A DNA stretch of 64,000 nt from NCBI GenBank assembly GCA_015956445.1, contig WIUZ02000005.1, positions 1,860,001 to 1,924,000 of the forward strand, in the 5' to 3' direction. This document shows, piece after piece, positions 1 through 63,831 of the stretch (positions are counted from its first letter, which is position 1; each line of letters begins with the position of its first letter). This stretch comes from Thelephora terrestris (Eukaryota; Basidiomycota; Agaricomycetes; Thelephorales; Thelephoraceae). The notes beneath the pieces were generated by a model. It saw only the letters and a program-made list of their open reading frames with translations. It was not told where the DNA came from and searched no databases. The position numbers were made by a program, and so were the translations under genes.

Positions 1-343
1 AGACCTATGTTACACATTACGGACTGCGAGGTTTCATCGGAGGCTCATCTCCTCTGCCAGTCGTGTTCTCCTACACTCCCATCGCAGAAGCGCCGACAGC
101 GATTGGCAACTCGCGAAGGATAATCCGAGAATAAGTAGCGCATGGAAAACAAATTCAAGGTGGAATGCCCAAGTGGGACCGAACTATAGCGGGAGCCCCG
201 ATACAGGGAAGCACGCTTAGCGTACGTTACAAGTGCGGAATAAAGGGAAAGCGAACGACAGCGACGGATGAACGATACAAATGTATAGAGGAACGCCTGA
301 AAGAGGGGTGGAGTAGAGGGGGATATCGTTACAGGTTTTCTTG
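1..343. other. Window edge downstream of CNOT9, no gene seen
   Basis: This stretch lies 3' of the CNOT9-like gene, which ends at 344 on the minus strand. Short open frames occur on both strands but none has a recognisable domain or a convincing exon structure. It probably holds the 3' UTR of that gene and the border of a gene outside the window. Confidence 0.5.
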
Positions 344-1880
344 TCAGTGGTTGGTCAGTTCGTTCAGATTGTTCAAGAGAGTGGTGAGGCATCTCTTTGT
401 GACCATATCGCCCTAGAAGATGTGAGACGAGAGATGTGAGAGAAAACATATGCAACAACTCACCTTGAGTAGTGCACTGAATGTATTATCTCTCAAGGGT
501 TCTGGTAAGCAGGCTCTCAACGCTTCACGGGCTCTGAAGAATTGGAGTTAGCTCTCTTTCCGTAAACAGTTAAAGACATCGTACCTCGGGTTATCACTCA
601 ACCTAAGGTAACACCTCACGACATGTTTCAACAACCTAACGGCCTGCGTCTCCACGAGTTGGTTCACCATGTTGCTCAACACGGTCCCCACAGCGTAGAA
701 CCTCTCGTAGGTGTGGCATATATACGTCAAGCCAGTCTCGTCCAACAGGATCTTCTGAACGATGAAGATGGCAACGGTTTTGGACAGCTCAGAGCCTGTT
801 TCCATGATCCGCAGACAGAGGGGAATGATCTCCGTCGAAAGAAGGAAGTGAATCACGGTCGAGTTGTCATTTTGCTGGAGATGGGTGTTTCAAGGTAAGT
901 GTGATGTGAGCGAGAAAGGACACCCCAAGAGCGGAAACAATGAATGGAATGATGACGCACTTTGACTAAAGCGCCGATGACGCCGAGAGACGTAAGCCTT
1001 AGGTACTCGAATGGTCTCGTTTTAGACGTCGTGTTGAGGAAAGGGTACAAAAATAGCGGGATGTGAGCTATATAGCCAAATTCCACGCCAAGTACAGAGC
1101 TGTTTAGCAAGTTTTAGTGCGAATGTGCCACGGAAAACGCACCGTTGAGGAATAGCTGCCTCGTCTCGGAATGAGAGGCAACACACTGCAATAGCGCAAG
1201 GGCGTTACAGACGCGGTTGGACACATGGGCGGTCAGGTTGGGGGGCGACAGCAAGGGGTAGACGGAAACGATCTCTTGAAGCAAAGCGGGCATGATTCCT
1301 GCCCAAAGACCCGCGATTTAACCTCCTGCCGAAGCCCAGCACCAGACATGTAATACGCACCGAAGGAATGCCATAAAACCATCGCAAGGTCGTCCCACTG
1401 TTCCCTCTTCTTACTCAACTCCAACAACGCAGTTTCCCTCGCATTTGGATCCATGAGATCAATGACCAGGGAGAACAATTTCCCCTCTTCATGACCAGGT
1501 CCTACGCCAGTGATACCTCCAACACCACCCGCATTCAAACCAACGGTTCCCATACCTCCAACTCCGACCGGTAAACCGAGACCTCCGCCCTGGAACGCGT
1601 TCATGTATTGGTTGGCTTGCTGATGAGAAAGATGCGCCGGGAGAGACGGTGAGTCTGAGTACGACAAATTAACGTTGACACCCCCTCCCGCTCCTCCGAC
1701 ACCACCACCTAGTCCTCCCCCAAGCCCGATTGTTCCGGCCCGCTGCTGGTGCTGTTGATAAACCTGAGGCAAAACGCCCATGTTGAGGTTGTACTGTTGT
1801 TGCTGAGCGGCCCCACCGCCACCGCTTCCACCTCCGCCCTGGAGGAACGAGACGGGTGATGGCGAGATGAGACCGGCCAT
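344..1880 (-). CDS. CAF40: CCR4-NOT complex subunit CNOT9/RCD1/CAF40
   Basis: Subunit of the cytoplasmic and nuclear CCR4-NOT deadenylase complex, where this armadillo-repeat protein docks RNA-binding partners. Six coding exons can be read on the minus strand: 1361-1880, 1143-1298, 961-1067, 585-874, 465-533 and 344-412. The first exon starts with [12 protein letters not shown] and carries a Gly- and Gln-rich, low-complexity N-terminus of about 130 residues, followed by the conserved block ending [16 protein letters not shown]. Later exons give the family hallmarks [58 protein letters not shown] and [20 protein letters not shown]. The last exon ends [17 protein letters not shown]. All inferred borders are GT..AG and keep frame. 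The ARM core is nearly invariant in eukaryotes, so the assignment is strong; the low-complexity N-terminus is as usual in fungi. Confidence 0.96.
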
Positions 1881-2424
1881 CGCGTCCGACGTTGAGGTCG
1901 AACTACGAGGCCGGTGTAGTCCGAGCGAAGATGATGTTCGAGAGATGGTGGAAAAAGGTGAACGGACACGCTAAACGAAGCGAGCCAGAGGGTAAGACGG
2001 GGTTTGGGTGAGGAAAGGAGGAGTTGGTAGATCGAGATCAGTCAAGCATTTGATATTGATCACCTCCCCCGTATCTAGATCTCGGCGTGCAAGCATACAA
2101 CTAACGACCCTTTGATATTCAATTGCAATGCGTTACTGTCCTTGAATGAAGTACCACTGTGTTCCCACGACTGGAACGCCTTGGGACACAACACCAAAAC
2201 AGCCACGAAAGTGATCTAGAAAAAGAAAAATAAGGAATAAATACAACCGTTCCTATCCATATCCATATGCACAGGTAAGCAGCAGATCAGCGCACAGGTT
2301 CGGATCCGAATGCTTGATTTACTCCCGTTGCAGAGATAAAACAAGCCGGATGAACATTTAGAGAGGGAAACCAGACCAGGGGACGCAGAAAGAAAAAAAG
2401 AGGAGGGAGGAAAGTTGAAGGAGA
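1881..2424. other. Intergenic: CNOT9 upstream region and MSC2 3' flank
   Basis: Both neighbours lie on the minus strand, so this gap holds the CNOT9 promoter and 5' UTR next to 1881 and the MSC2 3' UTR near 2424. A purine-rich run lies at about 2380-2415. No coding exon was recognised. Confidence 0.5.
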
Positions 2425-5400
2425 TCACAGCACAACCGCCTCCGGCTTCCCTTCTTCTACTTGAATCGTCAGTTCTTCCAATCCCTGTATTCGACTCCTC
2501 AGTATGTAGTCCACTCTTTCAACTACCCGATCCATATTCGCATAAGCTCGTTTTGTGGTTGAGTGAGGGCCATGTGGGTCGTACGATGAGGCTGAGAGAG
2601 CGAGCTGGAGGTGTATCGACCCAATCATGCTTGACGAATCCTTTGGCCAAAACCTGGGGTACGTGAACGAAGCGAGACCCTCAACCGTACCCAGCTGCAA
2701 AGGGGTAATTGATTATGAGCGAATTAGAGAAGTTAGAGAATAATGACCCACCTCTTTCAACGCAGACTCGATGGAGGTATCCTTTTCAGAAACGTCCAAC
2801 GCAAGAATCCTCCCGGTGTCAATAACCAGAGGCACGACACTCGCAGCAATGAGGATAGCGATGAACAATGAGGCGATTGGATCGAACCCCGTCCACCCGT
2901 AGAAACGAATGAGGATCGTTGAGATGATTACGCCCACAGACCCTAAAGTGTCCTATGACATATGCAGTGAGTACAACAAACATGTGTGATTGGTTTCGAG
3001 AGCCTACAGCCATGACATGGAGGAACACTCCTCGCATATTGTGACTATGTCCTTCATGTGAATCATGGGCATGTGAATGATCGTGCAGATTAGGGCTCTT
3101 CTCTGCATGGTGAAACTTATCATAGTGGTCATCTTGACCGAATTGATAACTTGGTGTTATTGGAGACGGGATCGAATCCTGCTCTGACTTCCCTAGAACT
3201 CGATCCATCACCGGGTTGCATGGACGATGATTCTGTGTAATGTCCTCTTCGGGAGGGGAAATATTTAACGGAGGTATATTTACGGGTCGTTTCCGTGATG
3301 GGGAGGTTGATCGCGAGTGTGGATGCTCGACCGTCAAGGCGGTTGATGTTGTCTGGCTCGTATTTGTATGAGAATGAGAATGCGAGCAATTTCCATCCAC
3401 ATGGGAGTGTTCGGGGGAATGAGAGTGAGAGCGTGAAGGAGGCTGAGGATTGGAGTGATCACGAGAGGCTGTTGCATGAAGATGGTTCCTCGAGGGGGAC
3501 GTTTGCACTGAAGGAGGAAGGGGGACGTGCGATTGCGAATGGAAATGTGATTGCGGATGAGAGTGGGAATGTCCGTCTAGGTGCGAGTGAGAGTGCGATT
3601 TTGGAGGTTGAGAATCAGAGCGCGAAGGGTTAGAATGCGAGTGCCCATGCCCGTGGTGATCGTGGTGATCATCGCCGATGGATCCGTTCTCCCTTTCGGG
3701 GGACTCGGGTGAAGGTGGTCCATGAGAATGCCCATGTCCGTGACCGTGACTATGGCTACCATGAGAGTGAGAATGTCCCTACAAGGCGGGATCAGCAAAC
3801 TTCAACGAATGAGAACATCATACCCACATGATGGTGGTGTCCTCCCATCGCGAACATGCCGAACAAGTTTACGCCCAACCCAAGGGAGCTGACAAGCAAC
3901 AACTGGTTGGTGTTCATTTCCGGGGGGTCGAGGCTGGAACGTAAAATCAACACCTGAGAGGTCAAGAATAAGGGGAGGCAACACGAACATTCGTTGAATG
4001 GCCTCAAAGACGATAAATATCGAGATCAGGATGAGGAAAATCCCGTTCGCAAACCCAGAGAGAGTCTCTATCCTCCCGTATCCATATGTGAACCGTTCGT
4101 TAGCGGGCCAAGTTGCCATCACCGACGCTATCAGTCCAACGGCAATGGCCATACAGTCGAACGCCATATGGATCGCTGGCCGTGTGTTTGTCAGCAGTCC
4201 AAAAAATGGCAATCAATGATGCGCACCGTCCGATATCAACCCAAGGCTGTTCGTCCAAACACCGTACAACATCTGGACAATCATGAACCACATGTTTAAA
4301 ATCAGGAAGTAGAATATCTTGCGTGACTCTGGATTTGCGAGGATAGCTTTCAGGTACGACCTAAGAAGGCTCCCAGTCGAATTTCTCGTGAGCGATGCCT
4401 TTTCTTGGGTATGTTTCGGGTCAAGTGCTGCCGAATGGGCCTCTGCATGAGCATTTGAATATCCACCCACAGAGAACACCCACCTATGTAGAGGAGAATT
4501 CCAAACAGGGGGTCCACCCACGTTGGATGTTCAGCGAAAGCCAGGAATCCAAACAGCACAGTAAACACGGAAAGTGTCAGGAACGATAGAGGATAGACTT
4601 GTGAAGGAGAGGGGAGAGCCTTCAACGCATTATTGGCAGTGGGAGTGAAACATGTCAACGAAGCGGCCAGCAATGGGATAACGACAAGGGATGATATAGG
4701 TAGTGACGGAGTCTCAACCTTCTCGAGCTGAACAGCAGTAGATTAGATTTGCAAGATATCGTCCGTCAAAACTTGGCTACTTACCATGAACATTCGAAAC
4801 ACATACAATGGCACAGCAAGGAAGCAGGACCCAAGCGCACTAGCGGCCGTGATCATTTGCGGCGTGACTGATGGTGGGAAGACACTTTGCGTTTGTTCGA
4901 AAGCCACAGAAGCAAGCCCATGAAACGCAAGGGCAGTATAACCAGGCAAAACTGTCCCAAGATTCGCATACGAATAGTTGGCATCCGATGCGAGGGACAG
5001 CAACAGCGCCACCACAATGAAGAAAGAATTCCTTGCCTAAAATGATCATTGTGAGCGGTTGATCGTGCACAAATATCACAAATTCGAACTTACTGAAGAT
5101 CTGCCTGTCAGAACTTTTGGCCAGACAGTAGAATACTGAGTCAATATGATCACCCTGCAGCGAAGAACACAAGGCGCAATCAGGATCATCCCGCAATGTC
5201 AAAAGATGGAATAGTGTCGCACCTCACAGGTGATAGGATGCCCAAGGTAGCAAGTAACGATGCGTGCTGCAAAAGCACAAAGAGTGAGGCCATCCCCATA
5301 ACAGACCACTACATTCGGAAGTTGGAGTGAGAATGAGTCCGCGAATACTGGAAAGGACGGAGAGACTGCACCTCGACGGCCCTACTTGCGAACAGCTTCC

Positions 5401-55056: not shown

Positions 55057-57769
55057 TTAACAGGGACAGGAAGTGGCATCGTGTCCAAAAAACTTACTAC
55101 TATTAGAATCTGAATCGTCCGAACTGTCTGGCTGTTCAATTAACTGAAGGAGATCTCTGCACCCCCCCACATCATCTGTAGCCCCGAGTTTTCCCAAGGT
55201 CTCAATTGCGCACAAAACTTCGGCTTTTGCCTCTTCGAGCCGGTCTTGTCGATACCAAAGCCGAGCTTGCTCCTGCATCGCACGACCCAGGCAATATGCG
55301 TCGTCAACCGTGTGCGACTTGGCTTGGTTGAGGTGAGATTGTGCATTGCCGAACTTGCCTTCATCGCAAAACAGCAACACGAGGGAGTAATGAATCCAAA
55401 ACAGTGTATTGTGCCAGTCGAAGGGGGATGCGATTCTGATGGCTGCCTCGAAATGTTGGATTGCCTTCTCCCTCTTGCCCTTTTTGCGATTTATATCACC
55501 TAGAAGATCATGAGAATGGCAGATCCAATATTCTCTGCGTTGGTCCAGAAAGAGTTCCATCGCGTGAGATGCAGCTTCTTCCGCCGCGTTGAGTTGATCG
55601 TCATCAACCAACAACTGTCCAAGGCGATTCCAACACTTCGCTTGTCCCTCTCCATCGCCAAGCCGTTTGTAAATTCCCAATGCTTTCTTTGACTGTCGTA
55701 TCCCTTCCCTCTTGAGTTCTAGCATCCGGTTTGTGTCAGCTAGGAACCATAATGTGCGAGCAACCCGATCATCATTCCCCTGCCTTCTCTCTAGCTCCAA
55801 GGTGTGAGTAATGAGCCGTTTTGCTTCCACATAATTCCCAAGTGAATAAAACAACAGTGAGAATTGGAACAAGCATCGATGCTTGGAACCCTGGTCATCT
55901 GGGAGTCCTTCTATCTTTGGCATCAACACAGTGAACCGTGGCTTGTGGTTATGGAGATGATTCGCAAAATCAGCACAGGTGTCCCAGGTGTCGTCCGAAT
56001 CCATGTTGAAGGATGTGAAGATATTGAGCAGGTGTTCGACATTCACGTCCTCCGATCTGATCCACTGTGATTCTTTGAACCCTGCCTGGTCGGGTTCGAG
56101 ATTACCCAGTAACCGGAGCCGGCTGGAGTAGCAATCCTTTGTCGTGCAGAGGAGTGGGGATGTCCTTGGGTCTTGGGGACTGAGATGGTCTCGTAGCGGC
56201 GCCAACATGGTGATGAAGCCGTTGCTGCGAGACGTCAAAGACAGAATACAGAATCTGTCGATGATGTTTCTTCTGTTGGGGATGGAGGGAAACAACCAGT
56301 CAAGGTTGTTCTCATCAACACCTTGTGGAAAGAAGGCGACAACTCCGAGGAATTCACGGGCGTTAGGGCCAAGCTCTCTGAACATAGGGGAGGCGAGTGA
56401 GAGCTCGATTGTCGCCGCGAGGCTGTCATTGTGTTCCGTCCTAAGCACGTTGGTTTGTCGCAGGTCCCACTCTCTGGCCAGTCGACTGCTGTCCCAATTG
56501 TTCTGGTGCGCGACAGTGGCCAGCAAAGTGACAGAAAGTGGATGAAAGTCGAGTCGTTCGAGGATGCTGTCGATCACATTGGGTCGTTCGTCCTTGTCGT
56601 AAATCCGATAGAAAGCGCTACGTGCGGCATCCATCGAAATCGCGGGGACGTCCAAACGCTTGCAATCCGATGGTATCGTGGTGATCCGGGACGTGATGAG
56701 GAGCCCAATATTGTCCATTCGGCTCAGTTCCTCTATGACTGTGTAGATTTTCTTCGCATCCGATCCCTGTGGGTCGAGAATCGACTCGGCGTTGTCGAGT
56801 ACAATGAGCATCTCCTCGGAGGACAGGAACGGTCGAAGGGGGGTCAAGTCTTCCGGGTTTTCGACGCCAGCACCGACGGCCTTTGAGAGCCGGCTGAGGA
56901 AATTGGCCAATGCAGGCTGAAACTGATCACAGCGGATGAACCGCCGGTTCCCGCCAAACCGTTTCTTGATGCGATCGTCGTGGAGGACAGTCAAGGCGAC
57001 CGATGTTTTCCCGATCCCGCCCACACCGATGAGAGCGATCGGAGTGAGGCTTTCAACAAGACCGACGACCTTCTCGATCAGCTCATCCCGTCCGAAACAA
57101 GCCCGTGGTGGTGGGGGAGGCGATTCTCCGAGCATGCTGTGTCTAAACGTAAGGCCCCAGGTCTCTTACTTCAGTCAAAATTGCAAACCTGACTCGAGTC
57201 TAGGCAATTGTGAGCAGTTTTCAACGACGAGTGGAGTACAGTGGCTACCCACCATCCGATCCCTGATATCAGCCCCTTCCTGGCCTTTCGCCATGGTACG
57301 TTGGATGTCGGAAACGATCTCACGAGTAGTCGCAGCCTCGTGATGAACGTTGGAAACGATCTCACGAGTGGTCGCAACTTCATGGTGAACGTTGGAAACT
57401 GCCACATGCGTGTGTAGCGCAAGTTCGGTCTAGAAGCGGATGGTCAACGGTATGTCCAGATAAAAGAAAATTTGACGCACGTCAAATACATGATGAATTC
57501 TATCAAGCTCTGATTTCCAGGCAGCAATCGTCTCTTTGTTGTTCCTCGCATGGAAAATACGAGAGATGGGACTTCGTTTGTCCGGATCGACAACGCTCCC
57601 CTGTATCTGCGCCACAGTCCTACGATCAGGGGCATCGTAAGCAAGTCTGGAACAATGAGCATATCCACTCGCTTGCTCACCTTGTCAGTTGCCCAATCGC
57701 CTCAAACACAGGTTGTTTCAATTGATCCGCGTGCGCGTAGGCCAACCCTCGATCGAGAGCTCCGCAAAC
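55057..57769 (-). CDS. NB-ARC/TPR NLR-like protein, 3' part of a split gene
   Basis: Probable STAND-type nucleotide-binding receptor. The long last exon (55057-57142) begins HSMLGESPPPPPRACFGRDELIEKVVGLVESL, then the P-loop IGVGGIGKTSVAL, a Walker B-like MLIVLDNAESI, NIGLLITSRIT and LDFHPLSVTLLATVAHQ, a winged-helix part (ARLAREWDL..), and a TPR-like C-terminus (LWFLADTNRMLELKREGIRQSKKAL, KAIQHFEAAIRIA). Upstream exons are an 11-nt exon (57189-57199), 57253-57429 with the tandem NVHHEVATTREIVS repeat, 57481-57619 (VAQIQGSVVDPDKR) and the 3' part of an exon ending at 57681. That last exon is cut at 57759-57769, where a large repeat element begins. The first ATG left in the body is at 57133, so an N-truncated product remains possible. 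The rest of the gene is at 63583-63831. Confidence 0.86.
57759..57769. repeat. Left copy of 11-bp direct repeat (target-site duplication)
   Basis: GCTCCGCAAAC borders the foldback element on the left and recurs exactly at 63572-63582 on the right. It lies inside the NLR coding exon. A length of 9-11 bp is typical of Mutator-like elements and of foldback elements. Confidence 0.85.
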
Positions 57770-57776
57770 CACAGGG

Positions 57777-57859
57777 TTCAGCTATCTTTTCTCCATGGGT
57801 CATGGACCATACATCGTGACAATTCTCCATGGGTCATGGGCCATGCAACGTTGTACAAC
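57777..57859 (+). repeat. Left terminal inverted repeat
   Basis: It begins TTCAGCTATCTTTTCTCC and runs into the array. Over about 73 bp it is identical to the reverse complement of the right end, followed by a single mismatch (G against A) before TTGTACAAC. The outermost few bases differ: CACAGGG on the left, GGG on the right. Confidence 0.85.
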
Positions 57860-59460
57860 ACTATCCTTTCCCCATGCCTCATGGGTTGTACAATGCTATC
57901 CTTTCCCCATGGGGCATGGGTTGTACAACACTATCCAATTCCCATGCCCCATGGGTTGTACAACGCTATCTGTTCCCCATGGGTCACGGGTTGTACAACA
58001 CTATCCAATTCCCATGCCCCATGGGTTGTACAACGCTATCCATTCTCCATGGGGCATGGGTTGTACAACGCTATCTGATTCCCATGGGGCATGGGTTGTA
58101 CAACACTATCCGTTCCCCATGGGTCATGGGTTGTACAACGCTATCCTTTCTCCATGGGGCATGGGTTGTACAACACTATCCCTTCCCCATGCCTCATGGG
58201 TTGTACAACGCTATCCTTTCCCCATGGGGCATGGGTTGTACAACGCTATCCATTCCCCATGGGTCATGGGTTGTACAACACTATCCATTCTCCATGGGGC
58301 ATGGGTTGTACAACGCTATCCATTCTCCATGGGGCATGGGTTGTACAACACTATCCATTCTCCATGGGGCATGGGTTGTACAACCCTATCCGATTCCCAT
58401 GCCCCACGGGTTGTACAATGCTATCCATTTCCCATGCCCCATGGGTTGTACAACACTATCCGTTCCCCATGGGTCATGGGTTGTACAACACTATCCATTC
58501 CCCATGGGGCATGGGTTGTACAACACTATCCGATTCCCATGCCCCATGGGTTGTACAACACTATCCGTTCCCCATGGGTCATGGGTTGTACAACACTATC
58601 CGTTCCCCATGGGTCATGGGTTGTACAACGCTATCCTTTCTCCATGGGGCATGGGTTGTACAACGCTATCCATTCTCCATGGGGCATGGGTTGTACAACG
58701 CTATCCATTCTCCATGGGGCATGGGTTGTACAACCCTATCCGATTCCCATGCCCCACGGGTTGTACAATGCTATCCATTTCCCATGCCCCATGGGTTGTA
58801 CAACACTATCCGTTCCCCATGGGTCATGGGTTGTACAACACTATCCATTCCCCATGGGGCATGGGTTGTACAACACTATCCGATTCCCATGCCCCATGGG
58901 TTGTACAACACTATCCGTTCCCCATGGGTCATGGGTTGTACAACACTATCCGTTCCCCATGGGTCATGGGTTGTACAACGCTATCCTTTCTCCATGGGGC
59001 ATGGGTTGTACAACACTATCCCTTCCCCATGCCTCATGGGTTGTACAACGCTATCCTTTCCCCATGGAGCATGGGTTGTACAACGCTATCCGATTCCCAT
59101 GCCCCATGGGTTGTACAACACTATCCATTCCCCATGGGTCATGGGTTGTACAACACTATCCGTTCCCCATGGGTCATGGGTTGTACAACGCTATCCTTTC
59201 TCCATGGGGCATGGGTTGTACAACACTATCCCTTCCCCATGCCTCATGGGTTGTACAACGCTATCCTTTCTCCATGGGGCATGGGTTGTACAACACTATC
59301 CATTCTCCATGCCCCATGGGTTGTACAACGCTATCCTTTCTCCATGGGGCATGGGTTGTACAACACTATCTATTTTCCATGCCCCATGGGTTGTACAATG
59401 CTATCCAATTCCCATGCCCCATGGGTTGTACAACAGCATCTTGTGCCCATGGGGCATCAG
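57851..59460 (+). repeat. Left array, about 45 tandem 35-bp units
   Basis: The unit is TTGTACAAC-N-CTATCC-NNNT then CCCATG-NNN-CATGGG. The first TTGTACAA begins at 57851 and the last at 59426, exactly 45 periods with no net indel. Each unit contains the palindrome TTGTACAA and a 15-bp inverted repeat CCCATG-N3-CATGGG whose core is mostly GGG, CCC, GGT or CCT. A period of 35 bp leaves every forward frame open, giving spurious frames of nearly 600 codons with a 35-residue super-repeat. Confidence 0.92.
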
Positions 59461-60156
59461 TTGCAGAATGGTGTTCTTTCTCCATGTCCCATGGATTATA
59501 TCACTATTCCAGGAAAGGAGATACTTTATAAATCAACCATTAGCTGTGTGAATTTGAAAAAATTAGACTCTGTTTGTATGCATGATAGACCATATATCAG
59601 TTTGTGGCTCTAACCTAATGGAAACTAAACTTAACCTGATAATAGCCACAACCTAATCCTCAATCTAACTTGAGCCAATGTAAACTTGACCCATGAACCT
59701 AAGCCTAACCTAATCCTAAACCTGGTCTAATCCCAAATCTACCCCTAACCTGACCTGACCTGACCTAACCTAACCTAACCTTATCTGACCTGAACCTACA
59801 CCTAACCTAACCTAACCTAACCTAACCTAACCTAACCTAACCTAACCTAACCTATACCTAAACTAACCTATACCTATACTAACCTATACCTAACCTAACC
59901 TGGTATGGGCAAACCTAACCTACCTATCATGACCTGTTTCAGCCTAATGTCATGTATGCCAGCCAAGACTAACTTCACCCAGTTGCAAACATATGACTTG
60001 GGTCACAGGACCATAAAGCAAACTGCAGTCCCCTCACTCTGTGCCCAACCATCCGATAAGCCCACGGACGCACATATATATCATCAGCAACCCAGCATCA
60101 TGCTTATCACCCATGTTCAACCACAAACCACTCTCACCCTTTGTTCTGTGCCATCT
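59460..60156 (+). repeat. Left inner arm with CCTAA-type runs
   Basis: After the array comes a non-tandem stretch, then CCTAACC pentamer runs (about 59690-59910), then a stretch up to 60156. The whole recurs in reverse complement at 60297-60960 with few differences; a short frame starting MGKPNLPIMTCFSLMS appears in both copies. The pentamer resembles, but is not, the usual fungal telomere repeat TTAGGG. Confidence 0.85.
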
Positions 60157-60296
60157 CAAAGCCTAACCATAACTCTAGCTCACCCACCCATATTCATCCT
60201 TGTGTGGAATATGTTATAAGTCTATAAACCATATGTTTGTAGTCCACTTGCTTGTGGGCCCAAGGAGGTGGATGAACTTGAGTTGTGGTTTGTCTG
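60157..60296. other. Central spacer of the foldback element
   Basis: About 140 bp between the two arms. Its two halves are only weakly complementary (AACCATAACTCTAGCTCACC against AACCACAACTCAAGTTCATC), so it may be a diverged continuation of the arms or the loop of the hairpin. No coding content was seen. Confidence 0.7.
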
Positions 60297-60960
60297 TGAG
60301 ATGGCACAGAACAAAGGGTGAGAGTGGTTTGTGGTTGAACATGGGTGATAAGCATGATGCTGGGTTGCTGATGATATATATGTGCGTCCGTGGGCTTATG
60401 GGATGGTTGGGCACAGAGTGAGGGGACTGCAGTTTGCTTTATGGTCCTGTGACCCAAGTCATATGTTTGCAACTGGGTGAAGTTAGTCTTGGCTGGCATA
60501 CATGACATTAGGCTGAAACAGGTCATGATAGGTAGGTTAGGTTTGCCCATACCAGGTTAGGTTAGGTATAGGTTAGTATAGGTATAGGTTAGTTTAGGTA
60601 TAGGTTAGGTTAGGTTAGGTTAGGTTAGGTTAGGTGTAGGTTCAGGTCAGATAAGGTTAGGTTAGGTTAGGTCAGGTCAGGTCAGGTTAGGAGTAGATTT
60701 GGGATTAGACCAGGTTTAGGATTAGGTTAGGCTTAGGTTCATGGGTCAAGTTTACATTGGCTCAGGTTAGATTGAGGATTAGGTTGTGGCTATTATCAGG
60801 TTAAGTTTAGTTTCCATTAGGTTAGAGCCACAAACTGATATATGGTCTATCATGCATACAAACAGAGTCTAATTTTTTCAAATTCACACAGCTAATGGTT
60901 GATTTATAAAGTATCTCCTTTCCTGGAATAGTGATATAATCCATGGGACATGGAGAAAGA
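60297..60960 (-). repeat. Right inner arm with TTAGG-type runs
   Basis: Reverse complement of the left inner arm. TTAGG runs lie at about 60530-60720. Differences from the left are mainly a small change in pentamer number (about 20 nt shift of the mirror centre). Confidence 0.85.
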
Positions 60961-61001
60961 ACACCATTCTGCAACTGATGTCCCATGGGCACAAGATGCT
61001 G

Positions 61002-63395
61002 TTGTACAACCCATGGGGCATGGGAATTGGATAGCATTGTACAACCCATGGGGCATGGAAAATAGATAGTGTTGTACAACCCATGCCCCATGGAGAAAGG
61101 ATAGCGTTGTACAACCCATGGGGCATGGAGAATGGATAGTGTTGTACAACCCATGGGGCATGGGAATTGGATAGTGTTGTACAACCCATGCCCCATGGAG
61201 AATGGATAGCGTTGTACAACCCATGCCCCATGGGGAAAGGATAGCGTTGTACAACCCATGAGGCATGGGAAAGGGATAGTGTTGTACAACCCATGCCCCA
61301 TGGAGAAAGGATAGCGTTGTACAACCCATGACCCATGGGGAACGGATAGTGTTGTACAACCCATGACCCATGGGGAACGGATAGTGTTGTACAACCCATG
61401 GGGCATGGGAAATGGATAGCATTGTACAACCCATGGGGCATGGGAATCGGATAGCGTTGTACAACCCATGCCCCATGGAGAATGGATAGTGTTGTACAAC
61501 CCATGCCCCATGGAGAATGGATAGCGTTGTACAACCCATGCCCCATGGAGAATGGATAGCGTTGTACAACCCATGGGGCATGGGAATTGGATAGTGTTGT
61601 ACAACCCGTGACCCATGGGGAACAGATAGCGTTGTACAACCCATGGGGCATGGGAATTGGATAGTGTTGTACAACCCATGCCCCATGGGGAATGGATAGT
61701 GTTGTACAACCCATGACCCATGGGGAACGGATAGTGTTGTACAACCCATGGGGCATGGGAAATGGATAGCATTGTACAACCCATGGGGCATGGGAATCGG
61801 ATAGCGTTGTACAACCCATGCCCCATGGAGAATGGATAGTGTTGTACAACCCATGGGGCATGGAAAATAGATAGTGTTGTACAACCCATGCCCCATGGAG
61901 AATGGATAGCATTGTACAACCCATGGGGCATGGGAATCAGATAGTGTTGTACAACCCATGACCCATGGGGAACAGATAGCGTTGTACAACCCATGGGGCA
62001 TGGAGAATGGATAGTGTTGTACAACCCATGCCCCATGGGGAAAGGATAGTGTTGTACAACCCATGCCCTATGGGGAACGGATAGTGTTGTACAACCCATG
62101 GGGCATGAGAATCGGATAGCATTGTACAACCCATGGGGCATGGGAAATAGATAGTGTTGTACAACCCATGGGGCATGAGAATTGGATAGCATTGTACAAC
62201 CCATGGGGCATGGGAAATAGATAGTGTTGTACAACCCATGACCCATGGGAAATGGATAGAGTTGTACAACCCATGCCCCATGGAGAATGGATAGTGTTGT
62301 ACAACCCATGGGGCATGGGAAATGGATAGTGTTGTACAACCCATGGGGCATGGGAATCGGATAGGGTTGTACAACCCATGGGGCATGGGAAATAGATAGT
62401 GTTGTACAACCCATGACCCATGGGAAATGGATAGTGTTGTACAACCCATGCCCCATGGAGAATGGATAGCGTTGTACAACCCATGGGGCATGGGAATTGG
62501 ATAGTGTTGTACAACCCATGGGGCATGGAGAATGGATAGGGTTGTACAACCCATGCCCCATGGAGAAAGGATAGTGTTGTACAACCCATGGGGCATGGGA
62601 ATCAGATAGTGTTGTACAACCCATGACCCATGGGGAACAGATAGTGTTGTACAACCCATGGGGCATGGAGAATGGATAGTGTTGTACAACCCATGACCCA
62701 TGGGAAATGGATAGTGTTGTACAACCCATGCCCCATGGAGAATGGATAGCGTTGTACAACCCATGGGGCATGGGAATTGGATAGTGTTGTACAACCCATG
62801 GGGCATGGAGAATGGATAGGGTTGTACAACCCATGCCCCATGGAGAAAGGATAGCGTTGTACAACCCATGGGGCATGGGAATCAGATAGTGTTGTACAAC
62901 CCATGACCCATGGGGAACAGATAGTGTTGTACAACCCATGGGGCATGGAGAATGGATAGTGTTGTACAACCCATGCCCCATGGGGAAAGGATAGTGTTGT
63001 ACAACCCATGGGGCATGAGAATCGGATAGCATTGTACAACCCATGGGGCATGGGAAATAGATAGTGTTGTACAACCCATGACCCATGGGAAATGGATAGT
63101 GTTGTACAACCCATGCCCCATGGAGAATGGATAGCGTTGTACAACCCATGCCCCATGGGGAAAGGATAGCATTGTACAACCCATGAGGCATGGGGAAGGG
63201 ATAGTGTTGTACAACCCATGCCCCATGGAGAAAGGATAGCGTTGTACAACCCATGCCCCATGGAGAATGGATAGCGTTGTACAACCCATGACCCATGGGG
63301 AACAGATAGCATTGTACAACCCATGGGGCATGGGGAAGGGATAGTGTTGTACAACCCATGGGGCATGGGCAACAGATACCATTGTACAACCCATG
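61002..63395 (-). repeat. Right array, about 68 tandem 35-bp units, inverted
   Basis: TTGTACAA recurs every 35 bp from 61002 to 63382 (68 periods, no net indel). The units are the reverse complement of the left array. The minus strand therefore carries stop-free frames up to 861 codons, best read as array artefacts. The array is 23 units longer than the left one. Confidence 0.92.
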
Positions 63396-63494
63396 GGGCA
63401 TGGGCAACGGATACTATTCCATTACCCATGGGTCATGGGTTGTACAATGGTATCTTTTCTCCATGGGTCATGGGTTGTACAACGCGTTGTACAA
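63396..63494 (+). repeat. Outer end of right array with flipped units
   Basis: After 63395 the orientation reverses: TTGTACAA occurs at 63440 and 63475 with CTCCATGGGTCATGGG between them, in the left-array orientation. At 63475-63494 two copies abut as TTGTACAACGCGTTGTACAA, a perfect 20-bp palindrome. This local inversion is not seen in the left arm. Confidence 0.8.
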
Positions 63495-63568
63495 TGTTGC
63501 ATGGCCCATGACCCATGGAGAATTGTCACGATGTATGGTCCATGACCCATGGAGAAAAGATAGCTGAA
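63486..63568 (-). repeat. Right terminal inverted repeat
   Basis: Reverse complement of 57777-57859 with one mismatch in about 83 bp, ending TAGCTGAA followed by GGG and the direct repeat. Confidence 0.85.
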
Positions 63569-63571
63569 GGG

Positions 63572-63582
63572 GCTCCGCAAAC
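63572..63582. repeat. Right copy of 11-bp direct repeat
   Basis: GCTCCGCAAAC, identical to 57759-57769. Removing the element and one copy restores one continuous reading frame of the NLR exon. Confidence 0.85.
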
Positions 63583-63831
63583 ATCAGCACACGCGAGCCC
63601 TAGCTCGACATAATCCTTTCTGTCGACCGCTGAATCCTGCACACGTTAAACAACGAATGAAGGTTGACCGACAGACACGATCGAGAGGGAGCTCACTCTG
63701 ATCTCGGAGAGAAGATCGCTAGTCGAACCGATAACAGCCTTGGCTGGAGTGTTGCTCGGTACCTCCTTCGTACGATTTAGAGCTTCGATAGCGACACTCA
63801 ACCCTCTCTTTCGCTGAGATTTCGTGTTCAT
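63583..63831 (-). pseudogene. Displaced 5' end of the NLR gene
   Basis: On the minus strand exon 1 (63697-63831) starts MNTKSQRKRGLSVAIEALNRTKEVPSN and ends GSTSDLLSEIR at a GTGAGC donor. Exon 2 begins at 63636 (DSAVDRKDYVELGLACADVCG) and is interrupted at 63582 by the direct repeat. The following codons of the same exon (ALDRGLAYAHADQLKQPVFEA) lie 5.8 kb away at 57758 and continue in frame. This N-terminal helical segment, with LGLACADVC, is the usual adaptor region of mushroom NLRs. An upstream ATG in the same frame at 63915 is possible. As the gene stands, a normal transcript would have to cross the whole palindrome. Confidence 0.82.

Follow-up and report, generated by a model that had tools for sequence, protein, structure and literature searches.

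The stretch of DNA analysed here, referred to as the window, comprises 64 kb of the Thelephora terrestris genome (C45:1860001-1924000, within a searched assembly of 40.6 Mb and 60 contigs) and carries a foldback element at 57770-63575 that lies in an exon of a STAND gene. The gene is on the minus strand, and its P-loop and TPR part, recognised by comparison of domains and relatives, is a 702-amino-acid open-reading frame (ORF) at 55057-57165, the best named relatives of which are T. terrestris proteins, several of them named NB-ARC domain-containing. On the same strand, the first 54 nt of the split exon were placed at 63583-63636 from the joined empty site and an alignment of paralogues, and the remainder, up to the inferred donor, at 57682-57769 from the joined empty site. 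When the element was removed in silico, the exon was open up to a GTGAGC donor, with its borders set by inspection, and it aligned without gaps to four paralogues from the same genome, with 25, 31, 33, and 34 of 48 residues identical. When the element is present, the exon reads into it and then meets a stop. Since the exon is continuous at the empty site and interrupted by the element, the insertion splits the coding part of this STAND (NB-ARC/TPR) gene, and the element is also of interest as one that breaks an immune-receptor-like gene of a forest fungus.

The element is bordered by exact copies of the target-site duplication CGCAAAC, at 57763-57769 on the left and 63576-63582 on the right. 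Its left terminus is the heptamer CACAGGG (57770-57776, plus strand) and its right terminus the heptamer GGGGCTC (63569-63575, minus strand; GAGCCCC when read inward), both located by searching for exact 13-mers composed of the heptamer and TTCAGC, and both lying outside the inverted repeat. Inside them is an outer terminal inverted repeat of 73 bp, with the left copy at 57777-57849 (plus) and the right copy at 63496-63568 (minus), identical at 73 of 73 positions when compared by eye. The left array of 35-bp units (TTGTACAAC...CCATGGGGCATGGG) occupies 57850-59457 on the plus strand (45.9 copies, 86% matches), and the right array occupies 61000-63439 on the minus strand (69.7 copies, 84% matches). 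The inner arms, delimited by repeat and alignment analysis at 59500-60189 (plus) and 60267-60935 (minus), enclose a 77-bp asymmetric loop at 60190-60266 (plus), identified by alignment, whose direction relative to the ends varies among copies. In the window, the inverted arms measure 1985 nt at 89% identity, and the inner arms, aligned over 689 columns, differ at 10 positions and by one gap (95.6% identity, or 98.5% when gaps are left out). The preliminary description of this DNA had noted inverted ends identical over about 73 bp, opposed 35-bp arrays, and near-identical inner arms, and all three features were recovered here. Long inverted ends made of tandem sub-repeats define the foldback form, as in FB of Drosophila, TU of sea urchin, and FARE of Arabidopsis. 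Degenerate CCTAA arrays are also present in both inner arms (59744-59901 on the left and, as AGGTT, 60554-60691 on the right) and in a sister element at locus L056.

Each 35-bp unit combines the palindrome TTGTACAA with CCATG....CATGGG. The left array holds 45 whole units of 22 types, including one duplicated block of eight units, and the right array holds 69 whole units of 35 types, with 15 types common to both. The longest run of units common to the two arrays is four, compared with three at most in 200 shuffles, indicating that the arrays grow by duplication of units and blocks and only loosely in step; among copies of the family, too, the differences between arrays consist of whole units and blocks. 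A 596-codon open frame (57741-59531, plus strand) traverses the left array. Because the 35-bp unit changes frame with each repeat, the left array is open in all three frames, and this ORF is probably due to chance.

Copies of the element were then sought across the assembly; each copy search scored only 40 candidates, so the match counts are lower bounds. The first 601 bases of the element gave at least 261 matches, the inner arm at least 84 (77-100% identity), and the first 80 bases at least 66, with 40 at 99-100% identity over 78-80 bases (40 of 123 candidates scored). The end consensus drawn from the copies, read without selecting on the heptamers, was CACAGGGTTCAGC on the left and, inward, GAGCCCCTTCAGC on the right; in the copies read, the left end is CACAGGG followed by TTCAGC and the right end, inward, is GAGCCCC followed by TTCAGC. 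Exact 13-mer searches returned 59 left and 63 right ends, against two of each in controls. The terminal repeat follows 57 of the 59 left-end matches, and the two that lack an adjoining repeat (C1:3357625 and C56:683942) are taken as chance matches. With one mismatch allowed, the searches gave 137 left matches (control 44) and 157 right matches (control 69). From the 57 left and 63 right ends, together with two one-mismatch left ends, 52 converging left-right pairs were drawn by hand, by position in the match lists. These pairs span 459 to 12478 bp (median 4556) and total 263 kb, or 0.65% of the assembly, with nested insertions counted in. For most of the 52 copies, the reading covered only the ends or some part of the sequence, and the long copies at C3:1089954, C12:2795298, C10:198559, C45:1953348, C12:2147932, C59:827682, C8:807084, C38:27753, and C58:1459026, as well as a sister copy at C8:765527, were read at most in part.

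Identical 7-bp duplications flank 46 of the 52 pairs, and a further four pairs differ at one base. When one pair of a sister family is included, 47 of 53 pairs match exactly, four have one mismatch, one has two, and one has six, and no pair of the 53 has an exact duplication of 8 to 12 bp. Among 2756 deliberately wrong pairings, none matched at all seven bases and two matched at six. The duplication had previously been given as 11 bp, with the element ending at 63571. This length was in error because the additional GCTC is part of the fixed right end of the element, which extends to 63575, and the same four letters in front of the left duplication coincide with that end by chance. The reconstructed empty site looks the same under both lengths, because the bases taken out do not differ; it is the fixed ends seen in other copies that decide for 7 bp and set the right boundary. 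Preference for the target is slight, with the commonest base at each of the seven duplicated positions found in at most 21 of 51 sites. Just outside the duplication, the commonest bases are a preceding T (22 of 51 sites), a following A (23 of 51), and, two bases farther on, a C (25 of 51).

The element is thus a member of a real mobile foldback family of about fifty copies, dispersed through the genome with their own target duplications. A search of the rest of the genome with the end repeat had been proposed at the outset, and it returned not a single copy but 52 end pairs, nearly all with an individual 7-bp duplication, in agreement with the earlier suggestion of a non-autonomous foldback family in a basidiomycete. 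We consider it very probable that the family is a DNA transposon of the cut-and-paste type, non-autonomous and foldback in form. Several observations weigh against this interpretation. The pairs were chosen as one left and one right end that converge, so the finding of one end of each kind per copy is partly built into the count. Another 18 true ends (seven left, eleven right) either lack a partner or are duplicates inside a copy, and at C12:1194632 and C12:1201207 two left ends point toward one another. The pair C18:89772-93142 has no duplication and the pair C12:2147932-2160397 has one with two mismatches. Finally, searches of the assembly for MULE, hAT, P, and KDZ transposases, the four families covered, found none with the ends of this family.

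The two heptamers are different from one another and remain constant although the interior of the element recombines. Position by position they are complementary at five of seven sites in both this family and its sister family, a level reached in 1.9% of letter shuffles for the window family. Loop direction was scored by eye for 40 of the 52 pairs, 15 located directly in the sequence and 25 from the strand and coordinates of the arm match entering the loop, leaving 12 pairs unscored. The loop lies as in the window in 14 and in the opposite direction in 26, a ratio not clearly apart from 1:1 (two-sided binomial, p = 0.08); the unpaired copies C12:1201207 and C23:2697216, read directly, are also opposite to the window. 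In a tree of 16 centres, at least four changes of loop direction were required, two of them forced by supported branches. Two of the 13 inner branches were well supported, and loop labels clustered no more than in shuffles. The nearest neighbour of the window centre in this tree, C12:2528108 (path 0.0021), has its loop in the opposite direction.

Comparison of the arms points the same way. With the loop-side columns set aside, identity is 98.7% for the two arms of one copy and 96.8-97.2% for arms of different copies (16 copies), and fixed differences between left and right arms are confined to eight columns, all beside the loop. We had at one stage read the arms as inherited unchanged, since 29 of 32 arms were closest to a same-side arm of another copy. 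This reading was withdrawn once the last 34 loop-side columns were dropped, whereupon the nearest arm was the partner within the same copy in 14 cases, a same-side arm in eight, and an opposite-side arm in ten (n = 32). This pattern indicates that arms exchange sequence and that the loop edge alone retains its side. As the loop occurs in both directions and arms are homogenised within copies, the arms evidently recombine, and recombination with conversion between inverted arms, as judged from these alignments, is the plain explanation for both the loop flips and the likeness of the arms. As the unlike heptamers have survived such recombination, the left and right ends probably differ in function. 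At three loci (C1:535799, C12:2532031 and 2532838, and C45:1957801), array sequence continues beyond a right end through one shared junction. For the two of these with a known left end, the duplications ATCAGGC and CGCTACA match at the outermost right end. This repeated-right-end variant spans C12:2528108-2533657, with a spacing of 807 bp, C45:1953348-1961949, and C1:534292-535811.

The sister family mentioned above is represented by a nested element at C16:574896-578562, with ends CACAGGTTTCAGC and GAGCCCATTCAGC and a 7-bp duplication, GTACAAC, inside a 35-bp unit. Its own units are 45 bp long (19 of 22 spacings) and contain the palindrome GTACGGCGCCGTAC together with CCATGGGTCATGGG, which is common to both families. 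Converging pairs of sister-type ends were seen in at least ten other places among the one-mismatch matches listed, and a window-family copy at C3:429448 is in turn inserted in a sister-type array, with the duplication CCGTACG. Position 7 of the heptamers is altered in step between the sister families, from G/C to T/A.

A mechanism can be proposed from these features. A transposase made elsewhere would recognise the element ends plus the tandem 35-bp units, pair one left with one right end, and then cut; the element would be joined to a break with a 7-bp stagger, placed with little regard to sequence, and gap filling at that break would yield the 7-bp duplication. The array of 35-bp units would serve as a predicted array of transposase binding sites, a role proposed by analogy to Galileo, in which the THAP domain of the transposase binds sites within the tandem repeats of the long ends (PMC3688188). 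The driver may be a hAT7-like enzyme, a MULE with an unusual stagger, a P-type enzyme, or an undescribed one. Tentatively, and at odds we would put well short of even, both sister families could be moved by an undescribed transposase lineage that makes cuts of exactly 7 bp and requires unlike ends, a left and a right heptamer, with the remainder of the ends forming an inverted array that recombines freely and allows the loop to flip; if this were true, the families would be told apart by an address code in their array palindromes, TTGTACAA in the window family and GTACGGCGCCGTAC in its sister.

Equally doubtful is a hAT transposase of the kind that duplicates 7 bp, hAT7 of rust fungi. Families of hAT7 with 7-bp duplications are described from Puccinia and Melampsora (PMC12730594) and are, like the present family, fungal; unlike it, they are coding elements, and they are likened here by description and not by their ends. 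The 8-bp duplication of hAT elements was not found in the family, and a length of 7 bp fits hAT7 only. The termini are not of the kind usual for hAT elements. Four hAT dimer-domain matches were found in the genome. The only one inside a family copy (C23:842973, within C23:836841-844347) was examined as a possible autonomous partner and rejected, since it belongs to a separate nested hAT. This nested element, at 293-4944 of locus L064 (C23:838700-844420), has the dimer domain, its own ends (TAGGGCCTGACATGGAC...AGGCCTTA), and an 8-bp duplication, CCCATGGG, in the foldback array, as determined by eye. The other three matches have no exact family end within 10 kb, and a one-mismatch left end at C7:826587, 4.8 kb from the hAT match on that contig, is within the chance level of that search (137 matches against 44 in the control).

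Somewhat less likely again is mobilisation by a MULE, which the preliminary description had thought probable. Short non-inverted motifs outside the inverted repeat (CACAGGG and GAGCCCC) are a resemblance to MULEs, though not a proof, and unlike heptamers outer to the inverted repeat are also a feature of Tm1, a family of foldback elements in which one member bears a MULE and duplications are 8-10 bp (PMC3169594). The proposal is undercut because it rested on the 11-bp duplication, and the exact 8-12 bp duplications missing from all 53 pairs cover the 8-11 bp that would mark a MULE. Two MULE-domain matches were found in the assembly; neither lies inside a family copy, and no family ends occur in the 9991 bases read at either locus. 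One of the MULE-domain loci (L060 2845-9698) is flanked by unrelated 125-bp inverted arms that are 92% complementary.

A driver of the P superfamily, as for Galileo, appears improbable. Galileo shares the 7-bp duplication, and some of its copies carry tandem repeats in their long ends (PMC4168063). Its target is the palindrome GTANTAC (PMC4168063), whereas the present family has no such preference at 51 sites, where mirrored positions of the duplication pair in 11, 12, and 14 cases; the length fits a P element and the target preference does not. A search for the P-type domain PF21787 found no match in the assembly, a weak negative given that the search was silent in every control genome too. 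KDZ transposases gave at least 126 matches in the assembly, none inside the 53 pair intervals when inspected by eye. That the element is an assembly artefact or a locally grown palindrome is very improbable, for although very long inverted repeats are an assembly hazard, 52 end pairs lie at different sites with matching 7-mers and the exon is continuous at the empty site.

The family has the form of a foldback element, a duplication length like that of Galileo, and unlike outer heptamers that recall Tm1. Animals and plants are the groups from which foldback elements are known. In a literature search on foldback elements with basidiomycetes or fungi, no fungal foldback family was evident from the titles and opening abstract lines of the papers listed, and the paper found on T. 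terrestris and transposable elements is a genome survey (PMC7550596). FB and FARE are named as foldback elements in the account of Tm1, a Mutator/Foldback family of root-knot nematodes (PMC3169594). In Tm1, too, the inverted ends are composites built from tandem units, the two outer ends carry 7-bp motifs that are unlike each other, most members are non-coding, and the target shows no consensus; it differs in its duplications (8-10 bp, mostly 9, against 7), in its units of about 14 bp, in the sequences of its motifs, and in its MULE-bearing member, of which none was found in the T. terrestris family (PMC3169594). Galileo of Drosophila, in the P superfamily, is alike in its 7-bp duplications and the tandem repeats in the long ends of some copies, and unlike in its palindromic target and P transposase, with tandem repeats in D. 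willistoni reported from one copy only (PMC4168063, PMC3688188). Tetris of Drosophila virilis is a foldback element with outer, tandem-repeat, and inner domains and a non-coding middle, and is distinguished by 220-bp units and 8-10 bp duplications (PMC4079207). The copy number of the present family allows fixed features (unlike heptamers, the 7-bp cut) to be separated from variable ones (array length, loop direction), so that the reason for a transposon to retain unlike ends, and the role of its arrays, become open to test.

Two gene-bearing copies, C60:461254-469613 (L061) and C58:1459026-1468098, were considered as autonomous members and rejected, as their frames belong to an independent repeat. 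Coiled-coil reading frames are common to L061 and L132, the latter being 3501 bases of the C58 copy. In L132 these frames are similar and on opposite strands, at 1423-1908 (plus) and 2711-3118 (minus). The second gave at least 150 genome matches among those scored of 661 candidates, some 9.3 kb apart, and this abundance assigns it to an independent repeat, perhaps a long terminal repeat (LTR) retrotransposon. None of the ten ORFs of L061 and L062 had a Pfam match above the cut-off; L062 (C58:1495582-1500635) contains about 2.2 kb of other sequence, also with no Pfam match. Three foldback ends (C8:357518, C12:2147932, and C12:2160397) fall, by eye, in the same few codons of coiled-coil copies. 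The coding repeat of L061 contains, at about 1880-2840, a further palindromic element whose sub-repeats measure 58 bp and whose ends are near CACTGGGGGCAAGGGGTCAAATACC.

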